This document shows, piece by piece, positions 38,812-57,253 of a stretch of 64,000 bases of DNA. The position numbers were made by a program, and so were the translations under genes. The stretch lies in NCBI RefSeq assembly GCF_000151315.2, contig NW_011887296.1, forward strand, positions 322,380-386,379, read 5' to 3'. The notes under the pieces are model-generated. The model saw nothing but the letters and a program-made list of their open reading frames with translations. It did not search any database and was not told where the DNA came from. Within the stretch, counting starts at the first letter, position 1. Each line of letters opens with the position of its first letter. This DNA is from Capsaspora owczarzaki ATCC 30864 (Eukaryota; Opisthokonta; Filasterea).

Positions 38812-41220
38812 TCACGAAAGTTCAACAACGGAGGCCTGTTGCTGGAGCAAATGCAGCAAATCGAGCAGCTCGCAGCTCTCATCCGGCTCGTCTGGGAGTG
38901 GTGAAAGGGGCCGATGGGTGGTGGTGTTGCTGTCGTTGCTGTCGTTGCTGTTGTCGTCGTCGTCGACTTCCAGCACAACGTCCTCGCAATGGGTCGAGCG
39001 TGCTAGAACCGGATAGGGATGAACATGACAAGGCCTGCTCGTCGCGCTTGCCGCAAGCGGTTTGTGGGTGCGAGAGCTGCGCGCTGTCGCAAGACAAGAA
39101 GAGTCGGCTTGGGCACGACGAGAAAATACGTTCGTGTTCTGCGATGCCAGACCAGCAAGAATAGAATGCAACTGTGCAGCTTCGGGGTCATCCAAGCGCA
39201 TCTTTGGCTTCGAGGCGACCTCAGTCACATCCCTGCCATTGTCTCTGTTGCTGTCAGTCGCTCGGTCACGTAAAACGGTGCTTGATACTTCTTCCAAACT
39301 CGCATCCACGGCAATCACATCGGCGGAGGAGGCCGGTCTTGGCGCCGGTACCCTTCGTCGTTTCAACGGAGAAACACTGCCACAAAGAGACTGCGACACG
39401 ACGTCGTCCAACAAACTAATGACTGGTGCTTCGAGCGACCGCAAAGTAGCAGTCTTGCGCGGTGATACTGGCAAGGGTCGATCGGAGAAGAGACGGCCTG
39501 GGGCAAATCCTCGACGATGGAGCCGACGCCCAGGAATCCGCGGAATGGCGGGTACAGCACTGGAATTCTCTTCTCCCGATTGTACAGCAGATACACCAGA
39601 GCTCAATCCAGCCATCGCCAGTGCTTGCGCAGGTAAATCGAACAGGAGAGACGTGGGGTGTCGATCGCCGGGCAGAATCTCTTGTTGGCGACCGCGATGA
39701 CCGATGCACACGCTCGACATGAATGCAACAACCGAGGCAGGCACAACAGTCCGCGGTTGCGCGCCGACCGCGGGGTCAATACGCCGAAGCAACCCTCCAA
39801 AGTGCTGCCGCAAATCCGCATACAGCTCGGGGACGATGGGCAGAATATCCCGCGGTTTGACAGCCCGGACGAACGCGGCCATTTCAGCAAAGGACGAGTG
39901 CAGTGAATAGGCCACGGTGAACAGGTGCGACTGGACAAACTCTTGCCGCTGGTAGTCGCGCAGGCGGCGTTCGCTATCGTGCTCCGCGCCTGCTTCCGCG
40001 CCGCTGCCGCCGCCTGTGCTGTCGACAGCAGCGCCCGGCACCCTCCAGTGCATACGCTCTTCAAAGTTGGCATCAGAAGCACGTACCGGCAATTGCGCAG
40101 ATGGGGTTTGGACAGCGCCACCACTGCCACGATCGAGATTCTGGCCAGCAGCTCCGAGGCGACCCGTGCCGTTGTACAGCGGGTTTTGGCACTGGCCAGA
40201 AGGCAGAATGGCAATCGTCGGGTATTCACGGTTCCATGCAAACAACCGCTCCGCGGTAACCTCGCGCTTGCCAACCACCCAGATGCGGCTGTCTGTCGGG
40301 TTGCTCGTAAACACGTCGCGCGCACCGATGAGCTGCAGCGCGTTCAGCCGGCTCTGCGAGACGACAATCCAGGTCTGGAGGCGCAGTGCCACCGCCTCGA
40401 GCAGCTCCTCCTTGCCAAGTGTGTCAATGCCAATCATGACGCGGTGGTCGGGATGCTGCTCAATGATGTCAACGACGGCGTCGACGCCGGCCTCGCGCGT
40501 CGGAAAGGCGAACTTCGGGTCGCAGTACGTGTTGTCCAGATACAAGACATCGACATTGAGGCGGCGTCCGCCGTGCGCACCGCCAGCGAGCCTTGCGCCC
40601 AGCAGCGAGTCTTCCGGGTGGATGAGCGCCGGGCAGAAGCGAAAGTCGCCAGTGTACAGGACGTTGCCAAAGTAGCCCTCCAGCAAGAACATGACTGCGC
40701 CTGGGCAGTGGTTTGCATCGAACGCAGTCACCGTCATTGTCTCGGCGCCCTCCGGGTCGAGCGGGACCACCGTGGGCTCGTCCAGCTCGAGCGTCTCGAC
40801 CAGCGACGCGTCGACGCCAAACTTGTGCAGCAGCAGCAGCCTTGTCACTGGCGAGCAGTAGATGGTCCCTTGCCGCCACGACGGCGAGAGGCCCTGCGTG
40901 TGGTCTATTTGGAAGAAGTCAAGTCACACAGGGGGAAAGGGGTGAGAAGACAGCAGCAGCAGCAGCAGCAGCAAACAAAGGCTGAGAGACACTGCAAACC
41001 ATTGCAAGAAAGAAACGAATCAAAAAGTTTTGGCGCCAAAAAGCAAAGAAACGGCAATGCAAACTCCATACAAAACGCCAGTTCATGGGAATCCAAAAAT
41101 TTTGCTCGTGCTATTTTATGTACCTGCATGGAGATGTGACAGGAAGAAGATCTTGATGGCTGGTGGAGGTCGCCAGCAGTCGAGGGCGATCGGCGTATTG
41201 GGAATGACCACCCCGACCAT
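38812..41220 (-). CDS. DCLRE1B: SNM1B/Apollo-like metallo-beta-lactamase/beta-CASP 5' exonuclease
   Basis: Two exons, 41220-41124 and 40904-38812 (729 residues). The start MVGVVIPNTPIALD matches the Apollo N terminus closely. Metal-binding motifs: HLHADH (29-34), DANHCPG, LYTGDFRF; then LDNTYCDP and the beta-CASP segments IGIDTLGKEELLE and VAYSLHSSFAEM. Family members digest 5' ends in interstrand crosslink repair and at telomeres. The C-terminal third (about 430-729) is low-complexity and not conserved. An intron interrupts the codon just before the Asp of the HxHxDH motif. The + strand 404-codon frame opposite is a shadow. Divergent from the ARB2A homologue. Confidence 0.94.
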
Positions 41221-46204: not shown

Positions 46205-47152
46205 TTATGGTTGTGCGGCAGGACTCTTTGTCGTCGTGGGGGCCTTTTTGGGAGCAGCCGACTTGGCAGCAGCAGACGCGGGTGCCTTGGTTGCAGCAGA
46301 CGGCTTTTTGGCCTTTGTGGTAGCAGCAGCAGCGCCCTTAGTCTTGCTTGCTGCTGGCGACGACTCTGCGGCTGGCTTGGCGGAAGTAGAGCCAGCAAGC
46401 TCGTTCAAGTTGATTCCTGAATGTCGGAGGCCCAAAACGCACGCGAGCAGCCTGCCGTGGAGCTTGTGGCCTTGCAGATCGAGCTCGGCGTGTACGACGC
46501 CAGCCTCGAGCATGCGCTTGGCGAGCAGACGGCCCGTGTTGTACGCGGCAGACGTGTTGCCTGTCGAGTACAATGCCGTCCGCAGAATGGGCTCGCGTGT
46601 CGACGCCGAGATGAGGAGGTGGTTGTTGGCGTGCTGCAGCGAGGCCGTGAAAGCGCGGCTCTGCTTGACCATAAAGACGCGGTGGTAGAAGCCCTTCTCG
46701 CGGATGGCGCTACCGAGGAGCTCTTCATTGCGAGGGTTGAGATTGGTGTACGGGAAGAAGGCAGGCGGTGATGCAGCAGCAGCGCCAGCAGGAGCGTGTG
46801 CACCCTCCTTGGCTGGCTTGGCGTCTGGCTTGGTCTGCTTGGCGTCTGGCTTGGTCTGCTTGGTCTGCTTGGTCTGCTTGGTCTGCTTGGTCTGCTTGGT
46901 TGGATCAGCAGCAGTAGCAGCAGCTGGCTTGCTTGGCTTGGCAGCAGTGGCAGCAGTGGCAGAAGCGGCTTCAGCTTTGGCGGCTGGCGTGCTCGGCTTG
47001 CTTGGCTTGGCTGCAGCAGCCGTCGAAGCCAGTCGCAATCCGGATGCAGTGTGTGGATTGGAGATCGCAGAGGTGGGCGCTGTGGCGTGGGCGCGAGCAG
47101 CAGCAGCCAGCGCAGTGGTGCACGCACGAGTGAGCGCGTGTATGAAGACCAT
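46205..47152 (-). CDS. MRPL18: Mitochondrial large-subunit ribosomal protein uL18m
   Basis: Single exon, 315 residues. The N-terminal ~45 residues are Ala/Arg-rich without acidic residues, as in mitochondrial presequences. An Ala/Lys/Thr/Pro linker with five TKQ repeats precedes the uL18 core (about 135-240): NPRNEELLGSAIREKGFYHRV, LLISASTREPILRTALYST, and AAYNTGRLLAKRMLEAGV, which match MRPL18. The C-terminal 75 residues are a basic Ala/Lys tail not seen in the human protein. Convergent with NLE1 (183 bp). Confidence 0.85.
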   Translation of the reverse strand: MVFIHALTRACTTALAAAARAHATAPTSAISNPHTASGLRLASTAAAAKPSKPSTPAAKAEAASATAATAAKPSKPAAATAADPTKQTKQTKQTKQTKQTKPDAKQTKPDAKPAKEGAHAPAGAAAASPPAFFPYTNLNPRNEELLGSAIREKGFYHRVFMVKQSRAFTASLQHANNHLLISASTREPILRTALYSTGNTSAAYNTGRLLAKRMLEAGVVHAELDLQGHKLHGRLLACVLGLRHSGINLNELAGSTSAKPAAESSPAASKTKGAAAATTKAKKPSAATKAPASAAAKSAAPKKAPTTTKSPAAQP

Positions 47153-47842: not shown

Positions 47843-50776
47843 ATGGCGTTGGACGCTATCGCACTTGCGTTAGAGGCAGCGAGAGCCATTGCATACGTGG
47901 TAGAGCTGGTGCAGTGCAACAAGCAGCAATGCATGCGCCTCGCGAATCGCGTCAGGACGATCGTTCCGGCGGTTGAAAGTCTGAAAATGACACACGCAAG
48001 CACCCAACCCGAGACGGTCTCGGCGCTCGTTGCACTCACCATGACCCTCAACGACTGCTATGAGCATTTGGAGGCATACACGCGGGCGACCTGGGCAAGA
48101 CGCGTTCTGTCGTGCGGCAGTGACCACGAGAAATTCGAGGACTTGAATGAACGTTTGAGCCAATGCATTCCGGCATTGCACCTCTCGCTCCACGTCGCGC
48201 AGCTGTTCGACCGCGAAGACGACCAGCGGGATGTTGCTGCGGACTTTGCGTACATCGAGGCGCATCAGCGAGAGGTACTCGACGCCGTCGCGCGACTCTG
48301 CGAGGGTGTCGACCAGGTCGGCGTTCATGTTGACTTGGTCCGACACAGTGTTGAACGCATTGGCGATCGCAACGATGCCGCGGTCGCCCAGGTCCTGGAC
48401 AGGCTTAGGTCACTGGACAATCGCGTCAACAAAAGGCTCGATCATGCACTCTTGCCGCCGCAGCCGTCGGGTGGCAGCCCTGGCCCAATGCGGCAGGCGT
48501 CCCCCGATCTGCCCGGAAGTTTGGTAATTCCGGCGTCCGAGCTTGTCGATATTCGGCTGTTGGGAGCTGGCGGCTTTGGTCAGGTTTGGCTTGCAAAGTA
48601 CCATCAAGACACTGTTGCAGTGAAGCGACTGCTGGTCAAGACGCTCGATTCGGCCGCCATGGACGACTTTCGCAAGGAAATGGCCGTCCACGCTGGTCTT
48701 CGCCACCAGAACATTGCCATGGTTATGGGCGCCTGTGTGGAGCCAGGACACTTGGCGATTGTGCTCGAGTATGCGACCAATGGCACCCTGTTCCACGTGC
48801 TGCAGGATGTGGCTGCCTTCCCGCAGTTGCCACAACACTTGCGGGATCGCATTCTGCTGGAAATTGCCCGCGGCATGGCATTCTTGACGCATAAGAGCAT
48901 TCTCCACCGAGACTTGAAGTCGCCAAACGTCCTGATTGATGGGGACATGCACGCCAAAGTCACCGACTTTGGGCTGGCTCGCGTCCGATCGGACGTCTCC
49001 ACCAAGACCGCTTCCCAGCAGAAAAATACGGGCACCCTGCAGTGGGCCGCACCAGAATTGCTTGTACTTGAGCCTGCGACGCCAACAGAGAAGGCCGATG
49101 TATACTCCTTCGGTGTGATTGCCTGGGAAGTGTTGACGCGAAAGCTGCCATACGAAGGGGTACCAGACTGTGTTATTCGAGACGCCGTCTCCCGCGGTGA
49201 TCGTCTTGTCGTCCCCGACCAGGCCAATCCCATATTACGTGCCATCATTACTCAATGCTGGACGCACGATCCCGTTGGGCGGCCAACGTTTGAGCAGTTG
49301 GTAGCGATTCTCGCTCCTGTCGCCCGCTCTGAGGCAAGTCTCGTGGCGGAGTCCAGTAAAAGTGTGACTCACACCAAGCCGCCTACAAACCACGAGGAAG
49401 CAACGCCACCGGCTACCACTCTTGTCAGACGCCGGGCTGCTCCTAGGCCACCGCCACCAATTCCACCCCGACCTGCCATACTGACTCCACCGCAAACCCC
49501 GACGCGCGTCGATTCATCAAACACTGCAAAGCCCATCAACAAGCCCTCCTTGCCTCCCAAAGTACCCCCGCGGCCCTCTCAACTCGGACACTCCATCGAC
49601 GCGACCTCAAAATCGATGCCCAGCCAGCCACAAATCACAGCGCCAGGCCAGGCTTCCTGCGATATTGCCCAAGGACCGCGATCTGCGCCGCTTTTGGCCA
49701 CCTCCACGACAGCATTCTTTGCGCGCAACAGCGTGGAGGCATCGCGTCGTCCTTCGGCGCCTGCTTCATTGCTGCTTCCCGCGACGTCAAGTACGAGCTT
49801 TGGTGCGCCCAAGTTGGAGGTCGTGTCCGATGTCCCAGCGCTGGACGGCGCGCCAGTGGTGCGTCAGATCGATGCTCTTCGCGAGCGTGCCTTGCAAATG
49901 CAGCGACAGGGCGAGCTTGTACCTGCGAAACAGCTGTTTGAGCATTGCATGGGTTTGCAGGAGAGAAACTTTGGCAAGTCCCACCTCCAGGTCGCTTGTG
50001 CGGCGACCGACCTCGGTCGCGTGTGCTTTGCCTTGAGTGAGTACGCAATGGCCAGAGCCATGTTTGAGCGAGCACTGGCGATATCCGAGCGCGATTTGGG
50101 GCAAAACCATGTGCGAGTGGGGATTATCGCGCATGAGCTTGGCCGGACGTACTTTGAACTTGGCCAGTACTTGGCTGCGAAAAAGCTCCTCTCGCGGGCG
50201 CGTGCCATTGCCATACACAAGAATGGGGAGACGAGCATTCAAGTTGCCATCGTCCAGGTCGATATTGCGCGCGCCTACATGGGTCTGCAGGAAGTCGAAA
50301 AGGCCAAGACACTGCTGAAACAAGTGCTGCCCGTGTACGAAGGCCATTTCGGCGAACACCATCTCTGCGTGGCCAACGTGCTGCGAGAGCTGGATCGGGC
50401 ATATACGACGCTGGGCAACACGAAAAAGGCCGAGCAGACGCGATCCCGTCTGAGTCTGCTCCTTGCACAGCGAGTGTCTACAACGGATCGCAATGTCCAG
50501 CTCTTGTGCAGCTCGGCGCCAAGCACTGCGCCTCTGTGCACCAAGTACCAGACCCCTACCGTTCATACAGAGACGTCAAACCCCATCGACACGAACTTTG
50601 TGTATGCTCTGTGGGATTATGCAGGGCGGGTGCCGCAAGAGCTGAGTTTCAAGTCCGGTGAGACGTTCACCTTGCTTGACTCGCCTCGTCCTGGCGGCAG
50701 CTGGTGGCGAGCGCAGTCGAATGTCTCGCACCAGATTGGCTACATTCCGTCCAACTTTGTCGCCCGAATGTCGTGA
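47843..50776 (+). CDS. TKL kinase with MLKL-like N-terminal bundle, TPR repeats and SH3 domain
   Basis: Single exon, 977 residues, no introns in the coding part. Residues 1-150 are all-helical with the pattern of the MLKL/HeLo-like four-helix bundle (ALEAARAIAYVVELV...LVALTMTLNDCYEHLEAY...LNERLSQCIPALHLSLHV), then a brace-like helix (about 150-200). The kinase domain (about 235-490) has all catalytic residues: GAGGFGQVW, VAVK (Lys261), HRDLKSPN (Asp357), DFG (375-377), LQWAAPE. A proline-rich stretch (about 530-580) has several PPxPP SH3 ligands. Residues about 676-875 hold four to five TPR units of the long 42-residue kinesin-light-chain type. Residues 915-977 are an SH3 domain (YALWDYAGRVPQELSFKSGE...WWRAQ...GYIPSNFV). 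Family parts are clear; the combined role is inferred. Confidence 0.9.
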   Translation: MALDAIALALEAARAIAYVVELVQCNKQQCMRLANRVRTIVPAVESLKMTHASTQPETVSALVALTMTLNDCYEHLEAYTRATWARRVLSCGSDHEKFEDLNERLSQCIPALHLSLHVAQLFDREDDQRDVAADFAYIEAHQREVLDAVARLCEGVDQVGVHVDLVRHSVERIGDRNDAAVAQVLDRLRSLDNRVNKRLDHALLPPQPSGGSPGPMRQASPDLPGSLVIPASELVDIRLLGAGGFGQVWLAKYHQDTVAVKRLLVKTLDSAAMDDFRKEMAVHAGLRHQNIAMVMGACVEPGHLAIVLEYATNGTLFHVLQDVAAFPQLPQHLRDRILLEIARGMAFLTHKSILHRDLKSPNVLIDGDMHAKVTDFGLARVRSDVSTKTASQQKNTGTLQWAAPELLVLEPATPTEKADVYSFGVIAWEVLTRKLPYEGVPDCVIRDAVSRGDRLVVPDQANPILRAIITQCWTHDPVGRPTFEQLVAILAPVARSEASLVAESSKSVTHTKPPTNHEEATPPATTLVRRRAAPRPPPPIPPRPAILTPPQTPTRVDSSNTAKPINKPSLPPKVPPRPSQLGHSIDATSKSMPSQPQITAPGQASCDIAQGPRSAPLLATSTTAFFARNSVEASRRPSAPASLLLPATSSTSFGAPKLEVVSDVPALDGAPVVRQIDALRERALQMQRQGELVPAKQLFEHCMGLQERNFGKSHLQVACAATDLGRVCFALSEYAMARAMFERALAISERDLGQNHVRVGIIAHELGRTYFELGQYLAAKKLLSRARAIAIHKNGETSIQVAIVQVDIARAYMGLQEVEKAKTLLKQVLPVYEGHFGEHHLCVANVLRELDRAYTTLGNTKKAEQTRSRLSLLLAQRVSTTDRNVQLLCSSAPSTAPLCTKYQTPTVHTETSNPIDTNFVYALWDYAGRVPQELSFKSGETFTLLDSPRPGGSWWRAQSNVSHQIGYIPSNFVARMS

Positions 50777-50961
50777 ATGCAGGAAAGCGTTGTTTTGTTT
50801 TTGTTTGCTTTTGTTTGTTCTTTGTTTGTTTCTGAGATTTCAATTCTGTTGTTCGTTGTTTGTTCGTTGATTGCTGCTCAGGCGTCCCATTATTTGTTAC
50901 TATCATCTTCTTGACTATTGTTATTCCAACCGCATTCAGTCTTTAGTTTTGAGTGATTGGA

Positions 50962-52526
50962 ATGGCTGGGTATCGCGGAGGAGGCAACGCGTATTACAGC
51001 GATCGCCCAGCGCCGCCGCCATACTACAACAACAACAACAATGGCCGGGACCGAGACCGCGACCGCGACCGAGATCGAGATCGAGATCGAGATGTGCGCG
51101 ACCATCGAGACCACCGCGACCACCGAGACGGCCGAGACCACCGAGACAACCGAGACCGAGACCGAGAGCGCGACGGCTACTATGAGCGCGACGGACTGCG
51201 CGGCGGCGACCGACCGAGCTACCGAGACCGCATGGACTATGGCGGTGGCTATGCTCCACAAGGACCGCCACCAGGAGGACCACCGCCAGGGCCACCGGGA
51301 CGCGGCGGTCCTCAATCAGGCGGCAGCGAGCCCAGCAATAGCAGAGATCGCGGGTATTACCAGCAAGCAGGGCAGCATCCGCATCCGCCACAGCCACCAC
51401 TGCCGCCGCATGGATACGCAAGCCCAATGCAGATGAACAGAGGGTACCCGCCGCCGCCGCAGCCGCAGCAGGCGTACGCGGGAATGGGTAGCGACCAGCG
51501 GCCAGCTGCTGCCACCCAGGGCGATCTCCCCCCATGGCTCAGGTCGCAGCCAATGCAGTCACACCATATGCAAGGGCATGGATTGCAAGCACAACAGCCG
51601 CCGCATCCAATGTACGGAGGCCTGGCAGGGTACAGCGGCTTTGGCTTGTTGCCTGCGCACTATTCACAATCTGGCAAGCCACTGTCAGACCCCACTCATC
51701 CACAACAGCAACAGCAACAAGCACAAGCGCCTCCACCGCCGCCGCCGCCAATAGGTGCATCGTCAGGACTTGCTGCGGGCAACGGAAATTCGTCGCAACA
51801 GCCGCCACCGCCGCCTCCAGAACCCGCTCAACCTCCGCCTCCTCCTCCACCAGCGGTGTCGTCACAGGCATCGGGCGGTGCTGCAGCAACGTTGGGAGTG
51901 GCACCGCCACCTCCGCCGCCTGCCTCGCCTCCTCGAACGGGCGGCAATCCTGCCGCGGATCTGCCGTCGACCAGCGGTGGTGAAGCCTCTTCCTCGCAGC
52001 TCGCACCACCGCCGCCCAGCCAGCCAGCCACCGCTGCGCAAATACTCTCAGCCATGGGAATTGTACCTCCTTCGACTGAACAACTGGTCCACTTTCCCCC
52101 AGGACTTGTTGGACCTGGGTTGGGGCCAGCATTCCTCGCGCCCTTGGCCTCCATGCCTCCATCCATTCGGTTACCGTCGCGAGATGCCGTTGCTCACTTG
52201 ACAAACTGGCCGACTGATGCTCAAGACAAGCAGGTGAGCTCACAGCGCTGAAAAACGTGGCCGAAGTTGTGTTGTGGTTGTCGTTTGATTCATTGAAGAT
52301 GTCATTCTTTGCTTGGTCATCTTTCTTTCCTTTGCTGTAGCAATGGCACAATCTCGCCGATGGCCGCCGTGTCAAGACTGACATTGACACACCTTCGGTA
52401 GTAGCTCTCAAGAAGGCGCAACAACGGGTTGAAGCAGCCAAGCTGAATACGCGGTTTTACGACACACAACTCAAAGTCCTCAAAACCCAGTCTTCCTATT
52501 TGGAGCAATTTGGCAACTATCCATGA
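50962..52526 (+). CDS. RD-repeat, proline-rich protein of unknown function
   Basis: Two exons, 50962-52233 and 52341-52526 (485 residues). Near the N terminus (about 30-75) is an Arg-Asp dipeptide tract (RDRDRDRD... then RDHRDHRDG) of the kind found in nuclear RNA-processing proteins. The middle is rich in Pro, Gly and Gln with poly-Pro blocks that could bind SH3, WW or profilin. The C terminus (exon 2) is a short helical segment (VVALKKAQQRVEAAKLNTRF...LKTQSSYLEQFG). A nuclear RNA-related role is a guess from composition. The start is the ATG at 50962 (MAGYRGG). Confidence 0.75.
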
Positions 52527-52676: not shown

Positions 52677-54297
<1,621 letters not shown>

Positions 54298-54575: not shown

Positions 54576-57253
54576 ATGTTCAAGCTTGCCATTGCCGCGC
54601 TCGCGGTGGTCGCAGTGGTCGCCTCCGCTGTCGCCAACCCCGACGCCGAGTTTGTCTCCCACTTTACCGAAAAGTCCCTCCGCGACGTCGGCACCAACGA
54701 GTCCATCTGCGCCTCCAACGTCAACTCGTACGCAGGCGTAAGTTTTTTTGTGAATGGTCTGCTCGCTCCTTTTTTGCTGCAGCCCCCAATTGTGCTGACT
54801 CGCTCGCTCAGCAGTCGCGTCCCAAATCTTCCCATTGACCCATTGCCATCCCTCCTTCCCCCTTGTGAGGGGTCGAAGGCGGGGGGGGGGGTTGCATGCG
54901 GTCTGGAAGATGCGAGCATGTGTTTTTCTTCTTTTTTTTTTTTCTTCTTTTTTTTCCGTTTGACATGTGCTGCCTGCTGCCTGCTGCTGTTGCCTCGCTC
55001 GACCGTGCCCCTCACCTACTGTGCCTCTGATTTTTGCCCACTCGTGTTTGTCAACTTGTCGCTTGTAGTACTATGCGTTGACTGCCACCAAGCACTACTT
55101 TTACTGGTTCTTTGAGTCGCAGCAAAACCCGAGCACTGACCCCGTGATCCTCTGGCTGACTGTGAGTTGGTTGGTTTTTTTGATTGCCTTGCCTTGTGGT
55201 TGACTGGTTTTTCGTTCTCAACTCACCGTTCGCTGTGGCGTGTTTTTCGTTTGATCTTGTGTGTGTGTCGTGTTGTGTGTTTTGACAGGGCGGGTGAGTT
55301 TGACCTGGCTGTGTGTTGAGCTTGCTTGGCTGTGAAGGACAAATGCGGTTTATTTTGATGAGTCCCCCGCCTCGCTTATCACGACGATTGAGTTCGAACC
55401 GTGACCTCGACACAATAACACCACGGAGAAAAATGCATGATGATCATGATGATGATGATCATGGTGATGATCAACGCAAAGGAGAAGAAGAAGCAGAAGA
55501 AGAAGAGGCAAGAGGAACATCCGTGAAACAAAAGAAACAAAAGAAAGGGTGTCAACTCCGACCACCAGGCGGGTTAAACGGAGAAACGCATGGCTCACCC
55601 GAAAAAACATCAAAACCAACTCTGATGAAATGCTGAAAACAAAAACGTTCAAGTTGGGGAATCCGATTGCAAAAAAGGAGAAAAAGATTGCGGATAAACA
55701 ACAATCGAAAAAGTCTCAATGCTGATTTTTGTGTGTGATCGGTCCAATGTAACAGCCCTGGCTGCGCTTCTGAGCTCGCCCTCTTCTACGTAAGTTCACC
55801 TCCGTTGTGGGTAATGGCAAAACTGTGGTGAACATGGAATTGACTCGCTTTGGTTTTTCTGCTTTGTGTTGTTTTGTTTTGTTTTTCCGTTGTTGGTTTT
55901 GTAGGAAAACGGCCCTTGCACCATCAACGACGACCTCAGCACCAAGGCCAACCCTTACTCGTGGAACACTTTTGCCAACTTGGTATGTTGAGAAATGCGT
56001 ACAAACATCAACTTTTTGGCTTGAAAATCACCAACCATCCTCTGCACCATAGCTCTACGTCGACAACCCAGTCGGTGCTGGCTTCTCGTACGGCCTCTTC
56101 CCCGTCGACTACGACCGCAACGAGGACCAGATCGCCAACGACCTGTACAAGTTCATCCAGGATTTCATCACTGCCCACCCCGAGTTTGCCAAGAACGAGT
56201 TCTTTGTCTTTGGCGAGTCGTACGCCGGTGAGTGCAGATTGTGTGCCCACGTTCGTTGTCATACCTGGCCACGCTCAGTGTCGTCCCAAGATTTCATGCT
56301 CATCATCACAACCTTTTGGTTGCTTCTGCTGTAGGACACTACGTTCCCGCTCTCGGCTACAAGATTTACACTGCCAACCAAGGCTCCGAGGGCAAGTACA
56401 AGATCAACCTCAAGGGCATTGCCATCGGCAACGGTCTGACTGGTAATGGCTCCTGAACAAGCCCAAAAAAAAAACGCGCAGTGTTGTTCTCTTTGTGTTT
56501 ATTTTTATACTAACCTGGTCGTCGTCGTCGTCGTCGTCGTCATGCGCAGACCCCGAGGTCCAGTACCGCTACTACCCCGAGTACGCTTTCAACAACCCCG
56601 TCAAGCCCCTCATCACCCAGGCTCAGTACAACACTGCTCTCGCCGAGGTCCCCGGATGCATTGCTCTGATTGCCAAGTGCCAGAACGGCACCATCGCCTG
56701 CTTTGAGGCTGAGACCCTTTGCAACAGCGAGCTCCTCTCGCCCCCGCTGTCCACTGGCGTCAACCAGTATGACATTAGCAAGAACTGCACCTACCCCCCG
56801 CTCTGCTACGATTTCGACAACCTCAACCGCTTCCTCGCCCAGACCACCGTCCGCGACACGCTTGGCGTTGGCAAGCACACTTGGTCGCAGTGCAACAACC
56901 TTGCGCACGAGTTCCTCACCTTCGACTGGATGAAGAACTACCAGGACAAGGTTCCCCCGCTTCTTGCCAGCAACATCACCGTCCTCGTCTACAACGGTGA
57001 GAACGACTTTGTTTGCAACTACAAGGGCAGCAAGGCCTGGACTCTTGCCCTCGACTGGGCCGGCAACTCTGGCTTCAACGCTGCTGGTGACCACACTTGG
57101 AACGGTGCTGGTGGTGTCGCTGCTGGCCTCGCTCGCTCGTACGGCGGCCTCACCTTCCTCCAGGTCTTCAAGGCCGGCCACATGGTCCCCCTCGACCAGC
57201 CCGCCAACGCTCTTGCCATGGTTGCCTCCGTGGTTTCGCACACTCCGTTCTAA
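54576..57253 (+). CDS. Secreted or vacuolar serine carboxypeptidase (S10 family)
   Basis: Eight exons: 54576-54737, 55069-55161, 55289-55293, 55756-55789, 55905-55982, 56053-56227, 56335-56442, 56550-57253 (452 residues, 1,359 nt). A signal peptide ([17 protein letters not shown]) is followed by the S10 fold: [58 protein letters not shown] (Ser180), [19 protein letters not shown] (Asp371) and [11 protein letters not shown] (His429). Several N-x-T/S glycosylation sites. Third exon is 5 nt (see separate entry). The mature enzyme would act in the lysosome/vacuole or outside the cell. Confidence 0.96.
55289..55293 (+). other. 5-nt microexon of the carboxypeptidase gene
   Basis: GGCGG lies between a consensus acceptor (TTTTGACAG) and a consensus donor (GTGAGT). 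It supplies Gly-Gly of the invariant LTGGPGC oxyanion motif and restores phase (exon 2 ends in phase 0, exon 4 needs phase 2). Omitting it deletes the motif and shifts the frame. Confidence 0.85.

Follow-up and report, generated by a model that had tools for sequence, protein, structure and literature searches.

The window analysed here, a stretch of 64,000 nucleotides from Capsaspora owczarzaki ATCC 30864 (contig NW_011887296.1, positions 322,380 to 386,379), carries a single-exon gene (47843..50776, + strand, ATG to stop) whose 977-amino-acid product joins an N-terminal bundle of the MLKL_N family to a tyrosine kinase-like (TKL) protein kinase, a proline-rich segment, tetratricopeptide repeats (TPRs) and a Src homology 3 (SH3) domain. 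Judged by the sequence comparisons, this finding is real and well above chance. Capsaspora belongs to the Filasterea, which are close kin of animals. Its genome holds two paralogues of the gene with Asp-to-Asn kinases, and the brown alga Ectocarpus holds MLKL_N-kinase-TPR proteins; neither was part of the first-pass annotation, which had been made from the window sequence alone. The reading preferred here, held at a probability of roughly 40%, is of an executioner-type protein in which the MLKL_N-type bundle would be under the control of the built-in kinase. All features of the gene described below lie on the + strand.

Residues 1-235 were searched alone against Pfam and matched MLKL_N (PF22215) over residues 10-120 with 73.1 bits (cut-off 27; E 2.2e-20), which places them within the family. 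In the whole protein the match spans residues 11-120 (47873..48202; E 2.7e-19). The next families for residues 1-235, SPO22 (E 0.051), PUB10_N (0.073) and MCAfunc (0.08), all fall far under their cut-offs, and the second-best has an E-value 18 orders of magnitude above that of MLKL_N. When residues 1-236 were compared with all PDB sequences, the seven distinct matches at E<=1 were all MLKL (best 4btf_A, E 4.4e-5), and a six-row profile likewise matched only MLKL chains (7/7; best E 0.0017). Membership of the N-terminal domain in the MLKL_N family is confirmed by these comparisons. The MLKL-like bundle proposed by the first-pass annotation is therefore borne out, and the profile search which it had suggested led to no unrelated helical family. 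The protein opens with a strongly hydrophobic helix (residues 2-24, 47846..47914), placed from hydrophobicity windows and from a predicted helix at residues 2-51; of all 23-residue windows in the protein, the three that are most hydrophobic begin at residues 1-3. The median hydrophobicity of the first helix was 0.71 for 14 MLKL_N kinases vs -0.65 for 108 other kinases from the same search, with near-copies present in both sets.

The open frame around the gene is 999 amino acids long. The database gene model, P0002, is 929 amino acids long and begins at Met49 (47987..47989), and residues 1-48 of the bundle, including the first helix, are missing from it. The MLKL_N match includes residues 10-48, upstream of Met49, a purine occupies position -3 relative to either ATG, and in the alignment both paralogues begin at the same position as the 47843 start; for these reasons 47843 is the better start. 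P0002 already bears an automatic PF22215 tag in the database, so the MLKL_N domain had been annotated by machine.

The kinase domain covers residues 232-495 (48536..49327) and was identified by Pfam (residues 238-489, E 2.3e-56, above cut-off), by PDB sequence matches and by Foldseek. All kinase motifs are kept: the VAVK lysine Lys261 (48623..48625), the alpha-C Glu279, the HRD motif at residues 355-357 (48905..48913) with Asp357, Asn362, the DFG motif at residues 375-377 (48965..48973) and APE. In sequence it is a TKL kinase bearing every sign of activity. Its best PDB sequence matches were a duplicated EGFR construct, then CTR1, MAP3K12 and RIPK1, then Src and RIPK2, and its predicted fold is nearest to RIPK2 and CTR1, which ranked first in Foldseek. 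This fold came from the second AlphaFold2 model (residues 1-495, 27 alignment rows, mean predicted local distance difference test [pLDDT] 73.0), for which the best 50 Foldseek rows were all kinases. The Pro-rich segment (residues 530-590, 49430..49612) holds four SH3-ligand-type PxxPx[KR] motifs, a number that only 2 of 2000 shuffled versions of the protein attain. It is followed by a TPR array of the TPR_12/NPHP3 type at about residues 684-871 (49892..50455; TPR_12 E 2.5e-28, three stretches, above cut-off) and by the SH3 domain at residues 922-974 (50606..50764; PF00018, PF14604, PF07653), where SH3_1 matched residues 922-970 (E 1.7e-10, above cut-off). The active-looking kinase, the Pro-rich segment, the TPRs, the SH3 domain and the intronless frame had all been noted in the first pass, and each was recovered here.

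A six-frame genome scan with PF22215, which could miss an MLKL_N copy split by introns, gave three matches, all above cut-off and all in single-exon frames: the window gene (E 2.2e-20) and two paralogues (3.7e-14 and 1.7e-13). Among the three proteins, that of the window gene scores highest for MLKL_N, shows the greatest hydrophobicity in its first helix and alone carries an SH3 domain. Paralogue B (C6, L005, minus strand) has 1205 amino acids and carries MLKL_N, a long Tyr-rich linker, the kinase, a Pro-rich segment and TPRs. Paralogue C (C1, L004:2273-4435), identical over its 720 amino acids to CAOG_01057, carries MLKL_N, a linker and the kinase, without TPR or SH3.

In both paralogues the catalytic Asp is replaced by Asn (HRN and HLN), while Lys, Glu and DFG are kept. 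Asp was found in 24 of the 26 rows of a motif table (the 14 MLKL_N kinases and the first 12 of 48 other kinases), and Asn only in these two proteins. Mutants engineered in the same way exist in the PDB for the nearest kinases, namely CTR1 D676N and RIPK2 D146N, which we take to be kinase-dead HRD mutants. Paralogues B and C are therefore predicted pseudokinases from this replacement, and one genome would encode one intact kinase and two dead ones. In a 62-row kinase tree paralogue B groups with the window kinase (support 99/84; 100/99 in a 53-row tree) and paralogue C lies outside the two, all three Capsaspora rows coming together at only 84/49; the placement of C is unsure because its branch is very long (2.34). 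The tree allows two separate losses of the Asp, or one loss followed by a regain.

Paralogue B also contains 11 YxN motifs (ten YQN and one YVN), a number reached by none of 2000 shuffles, compared with three in paralogue C (reached by 51 of 2000) and none in the window protein. When phosphorylated (pYxN), this is the ligand form for Grb2-type SH2 domains. Three PxxPx[KR] motifs were counted in paralogue B (24 of 2000 shuffles), and an SH3-PxxP contact may be formed either within the window protein or between it and paralogue B.

Relatives were sought in a limited number of database candidates picked by shared words, and absence from fungi, plants, animals or other holozoans is uninformative in these searches. 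Searched as a single sequence, residues 1-235 retrieved nothing but the window gene itself (1 match, 7998 candidates scored). A bundle-plus-kinase profile gave 1062 matches among 7997 candidates, with MLKL_N in 3 of the 120 listed, and a bundle-only profile gave 39 matches among 7998 candidates, 38 of them with MLKL_N. These 38 proteins comprise 20 from Ectocarpus, which span several species and strains and are not copies per genome, two from Capsaspora and 16 metagenome proteins. The 16 fall among P0125-P0157, have 160 to 259 amino acids with MLKL_N as the sole Pfam domain listed, and are stand-alone bundles or fragments of larger genes. The Ectocarpus set, which includes several partial models, divides into eight proteins with bundle, kinase and TPRs (P0010, P0123, P0127, P0129, P0131, P0133, P0135 and P0138), four with bundle and kinase, two with bundle and TPRs and six with the bundle only. 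The eight carry 2 to 7 TPR_12 stretches, partial models included, and this family is a candidate for variable receptor-executioners. Exon shuffling of NB-ARC-TPR genes is mentioned for brown algae (PMC10197012; this and the other papers are cited for the accessible portions of their text).

In the 62-row tree, whose 48 other kinases were reduced on the basis of word similarity from 107 with a nearly complete domain, the three Capsaspora and ten Ectocarpus kinases share one side of a branch (97/83). In the 53-row tree, which left out paralogue C, P0006 and P0004 (long branches) and six Ectocarpus near-copies, the branch holding two Capsaspora and four Ectocarpus kinases has support of 98/86. 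By path length in this tree, the kinases nearest to the window kinase after paralogue B are other TKLs and not the long-branched Ectocarpus ones, and the Capsaspora-Ectocarpus grouping may be due to attraction or to sampling, as the outgroup rows come from one word-based search. The metagenome protein P0006 has MLKL_N, a kinase and Sel1 repeats, and its kinase falls among the other TKLs. A single clade of all 14 MLKL_N kinases was not kept: it was not rejected (approximately unbiased test, p-AU 0.427) but it was not recovered. Two further kinases of the genome that are close to the window kinase, L006 (presumably a DLK-like kinase) and L007, lack an MLKL_N match at E<=0.01. The simplest reading would be that distant eukaryotes came to share the bundle-kinase unit as a whole, by inheritance or by transfer.

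The first-pass annotation had suggested that the protein, with a putative cell-death or self/non-self role, could be undescribed, but its architecture is not unique. The bundle, kinase and TPRs occur together in Ectocarpus, the bundle, kinase and Sel1 in P0006, and a bundle with an active-looking kinase in wheat Pm13 (PMC10951266), so that MLKL_N with an active-looking kinase is an already known kind of protein. Pm13 combines an MLKL_NTD with a kinase that has all key residues, much like the window protein, and is required for mildew resistance (PMC10951266). Its kinase belongs to the LRR_8B receptor-kinase subfamily, in contrast to that of the window protein, and Pm13 is probably an independent fusion for this reason; no TPR or SH3 is mentioned in the accessible text of PMC10951266. 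The Ectocarpus proteins are closer in build, with the bundle, a TKL kinase with intact motifs and NPHP3/TPR_12-type TPRs in the same order and with kinases related in the tree (98/86), but no SH3 is listed for any of the eight. MLKL homologues with Sel1 repeats have been described in Glomeromycotina (PMC8778642), and fungal HELL domains are joined to kinase or pseudokinase domains (PMC12881547); these share with the window protein an MLKL-type bundle with a kinase and/or repeats. P0006 differs from it in that Sel1 replaces TPR_12 and SH3 is absent.

In metazoan MLKL, too, a single chain runs from an N-terminal MLKL_N bundle into a kinase fold. Mammalian MLKL is, however, a pseudokinase (PMC10951266, PMC12881547), whereas the window kinase keeps VAVK, HRD and DFG and does not read as one; the window protein also adds the Pro-rich segment, TPRs and SH3, and no RHIM lies above cut-off in the genome. 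RIPK1 and RIPK2 are near to the window kinase in sequence and in predicted fold, but the domain set of RIPK1, RIPK2 and RIPK3 is not shared, as neither RHIM, death domain nor CARD is listed by Pfam for the window protein at E<=1. A 2020 survey of 67 protists found no homologues of mammalian necroptosis regulators and considered necroptosis likely to be vertebrate-exclusive (PMC7539657); its main text makes no mention of Capsaspora. The main text of PMC11476962, on metazoan MLKL, does not contain the words unicellular, protist or Filasterea. A canonical Z-alpha fold is known in Capsaspora (PMC11293857). No description of the Capsaspora or Ectocarpus MLKL_N kinases was found among the papers listed from the accessible open-licence PMC literature.

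The bundle and the region behind it were also modelled. AlphaFold2 model 1 (residues 1-235, 29 alignment rows) has a mean pLDDT of 66.5 and a predicted template-modelling score (pTM) of 0.56, with helices at residues 2-51, 56-81, 84-89, 91-122, 125-174 and 178-202. The short helix predicted between the third and fourth bundle helices fits helix hM, which is common to human MLKL, basidiomycete MLKL and HeLo-like proteins (PMC9815663). The helices between bundle and kinase (residues 123-202, 48209..48448) are a candidate brace, proposed from predicted helices (residues 124-202) whose confidence is mostly low.

In the executioner-type reading, the brace helices and an SH3-PxxP contact would restrain the bundle at rest. 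Clustering mediated by the TPRs would then lead to autophosphorylation of the window kinase and to trans phosphorylation of its two pseudokinase paralogues. Once freed, the bundle, whose first helix is very hydrophobic, would oligomerise and enter the membrane, which would be permeabilised or made to carry ions, so that the cell would be ended or alarmed. The intact-kinase protein would stand to the dead-kinase paralogues as RIPK3 stands to MLKL, yet with a bundle on all of them. These steps of autoinhibition, clustering and phosphorylation, and membrane insertion are modelled on MLKL and Pm13, and it is by the same analogy that the bundle would lyse membranes and cause cell death.

Several observations weigh against this executioner-type reading. 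The first 24 residues have a net charge of -2, and so differ from mammalian MLKL, in which the membrane-binding surface is basic. A first-helix hydrophobicity of 0.4, about the lowest value among the 14 MLKL_N kinases, was reached by 17 of the 108 other kinases. None of the 848 Foldseek matches to model 1 (pLDDT 66.5) reached E<=0.001, and for this low-confidence model designed bundles and BAR-type domains rank above MLKL 6zvo_A, which came 16th (E 0.096, probability 0.92, TM 0.42 by target). In VIA-align the same low-confidence model was led by designed bundles, then CdvB and pectin methylesterase inhibitors; no MLKL chain was among the best 50 rows, which excludes nothing. The fold comparison was dropped as proof of an MLKL fold, given the low-confidence model and the lack of a decisive match in either program, and the family claim therefore rests on sequence. 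The first-pass label was MLKL/HeLo-like, and the sequence matches are to MLKL specifically: scanning the genome in six frames with the HeLo profile PF14479 gave no match at E<=0.1, and this profile is also missing from the families listed for residues 1-235 up to E 10, a range in which HMMER filters drop most matches above 0.1. The genome scan for RHIM gave nothing above cut-off (two weaker matches, E 0.25 and 0.30, were taken as chance), and gasdermin was not found in the genome scan. Furthermore, the PxxPx[KR] motif occurs twice in paralogue C, unenriched at 250 of 2000 shuffles, and the proposal that this paralogue is rich in SH3 ligands was dropped because the count is not above chance. 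The weak, sub-threshold PUB10_N and MCAfunc matches are compatible with a non-lytic role.

Such a role belongs to a plausible, if somewhat doubtful, alternative, in which the bundle would not lyse membranes but act as an adaptor or membrane-docking module of a MAP3K-like signalling scaffold: the SH3 domain and TPRs would choose partners, the kinase would signal, and the Asp-to-Asn paralogues would be tyrosine-phosphorylated scaffolds. Besides the two weak family matches, this is favoured by the ranking of CTR1, MAP3K12 and RIPK1 directly after the EGFR construct in PDB sequence matches, by MLK-type MAP3Ks, which likewise have SH3 plus a Pro-rich segment, and by the YxN motifs of paralogue B with their Grb2-type form. 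The great lead of MLKL_N over the next family and the hydrophobic first helix argue for the executioner-type reading instead. It is unlikely that the labour is divided, with the window protein as an upstream RIPK3-like kinase whose bundle joins the oligomer and with the pseudokinase paralogues as the executioners; the kinase is indeed intact solely in the window gene, with Asn in both paralogues, the window protein has the only SH3 domain, and paralogue B carries PxxPx[KR] motifs, but both the top MLKL_N score and the greatest first-helix hydrophobicity belong to the window protein.

Lineage-specific domain shuffling or horizontal acquisition without any cell-death role seems very improbable. 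The patchy spread among the matches listed (a filasterean, brown algae and metagenomes), the three single-exon frames and a deep tree that is weakly resolved, with long branches and the three Capsaspora rows poorly joined, would be in keeping with it, yet three paralogues have been retained with full-length frames and conserved bundle positions, and the kinase tree joins Capsaspora with the Ectocarpus bundle-kinases. A more ambitious form of the executioner-type reading, itself improbable as a whole, would be a pre-animal necroptosis circuit. All of its members would carry a killer bundle, the live kinase would trans-phosphorylate its two pseudokinase sisters, and SH3 and TPRs would assemble them as RHIM amyloids do in vertebrates; the RIPK3-MLKL-like split would have arisen independently or in an ancestor shared with animals, and the brown-algal unit would be a family with variable TPRs, a candidate receptor and executioner in one.

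The neighbours of the window gene look like housekeeping genes. Ten open reading frames (ORFs) were scanned, four of which had a Pfam match, and no cell-death gene was found among them. The neighbours include a ribosomal L18p-like gene (46205-47152, -), a sub-threshold eIF3 subunit (52702-53511, +), a serine carboxypeptidase S10 (56495-57253, +) and a gene with a DRMBL DNA-repair domain (38812-40848, -). The ORF directly downstream of the kinase gene (50953-52251, +) is rich in Arg-Asp/Arg-Glu repeats and has no Pfam match. A genome scan for NB-ARC gave two matches at about the cut-off, both on other contigs.

Capsaspora, a single-celled holozoan, thus has three genes joining the MLKL killer-domain family to kinases, and such genes are present in Ectocarpus strains too, which contrasts with the view of necroptosis as likely vertebrate-exclusive in the accessible text of PMC7539657. 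With one intact and two predicted dead kinases side by side, the genome offers a natural case in which to study how a pseudokinase executioner could arise from a kinase. Should the bundle prove non-lytic, these proteins would reveal other roles of the MLKL_N domain. If it is lytic, kinase-controlled membrane attack would be older than animals and testable in a cultured single-celled relative, and a kinase-controlled necroptosis-like switch may accordingly predate animals.

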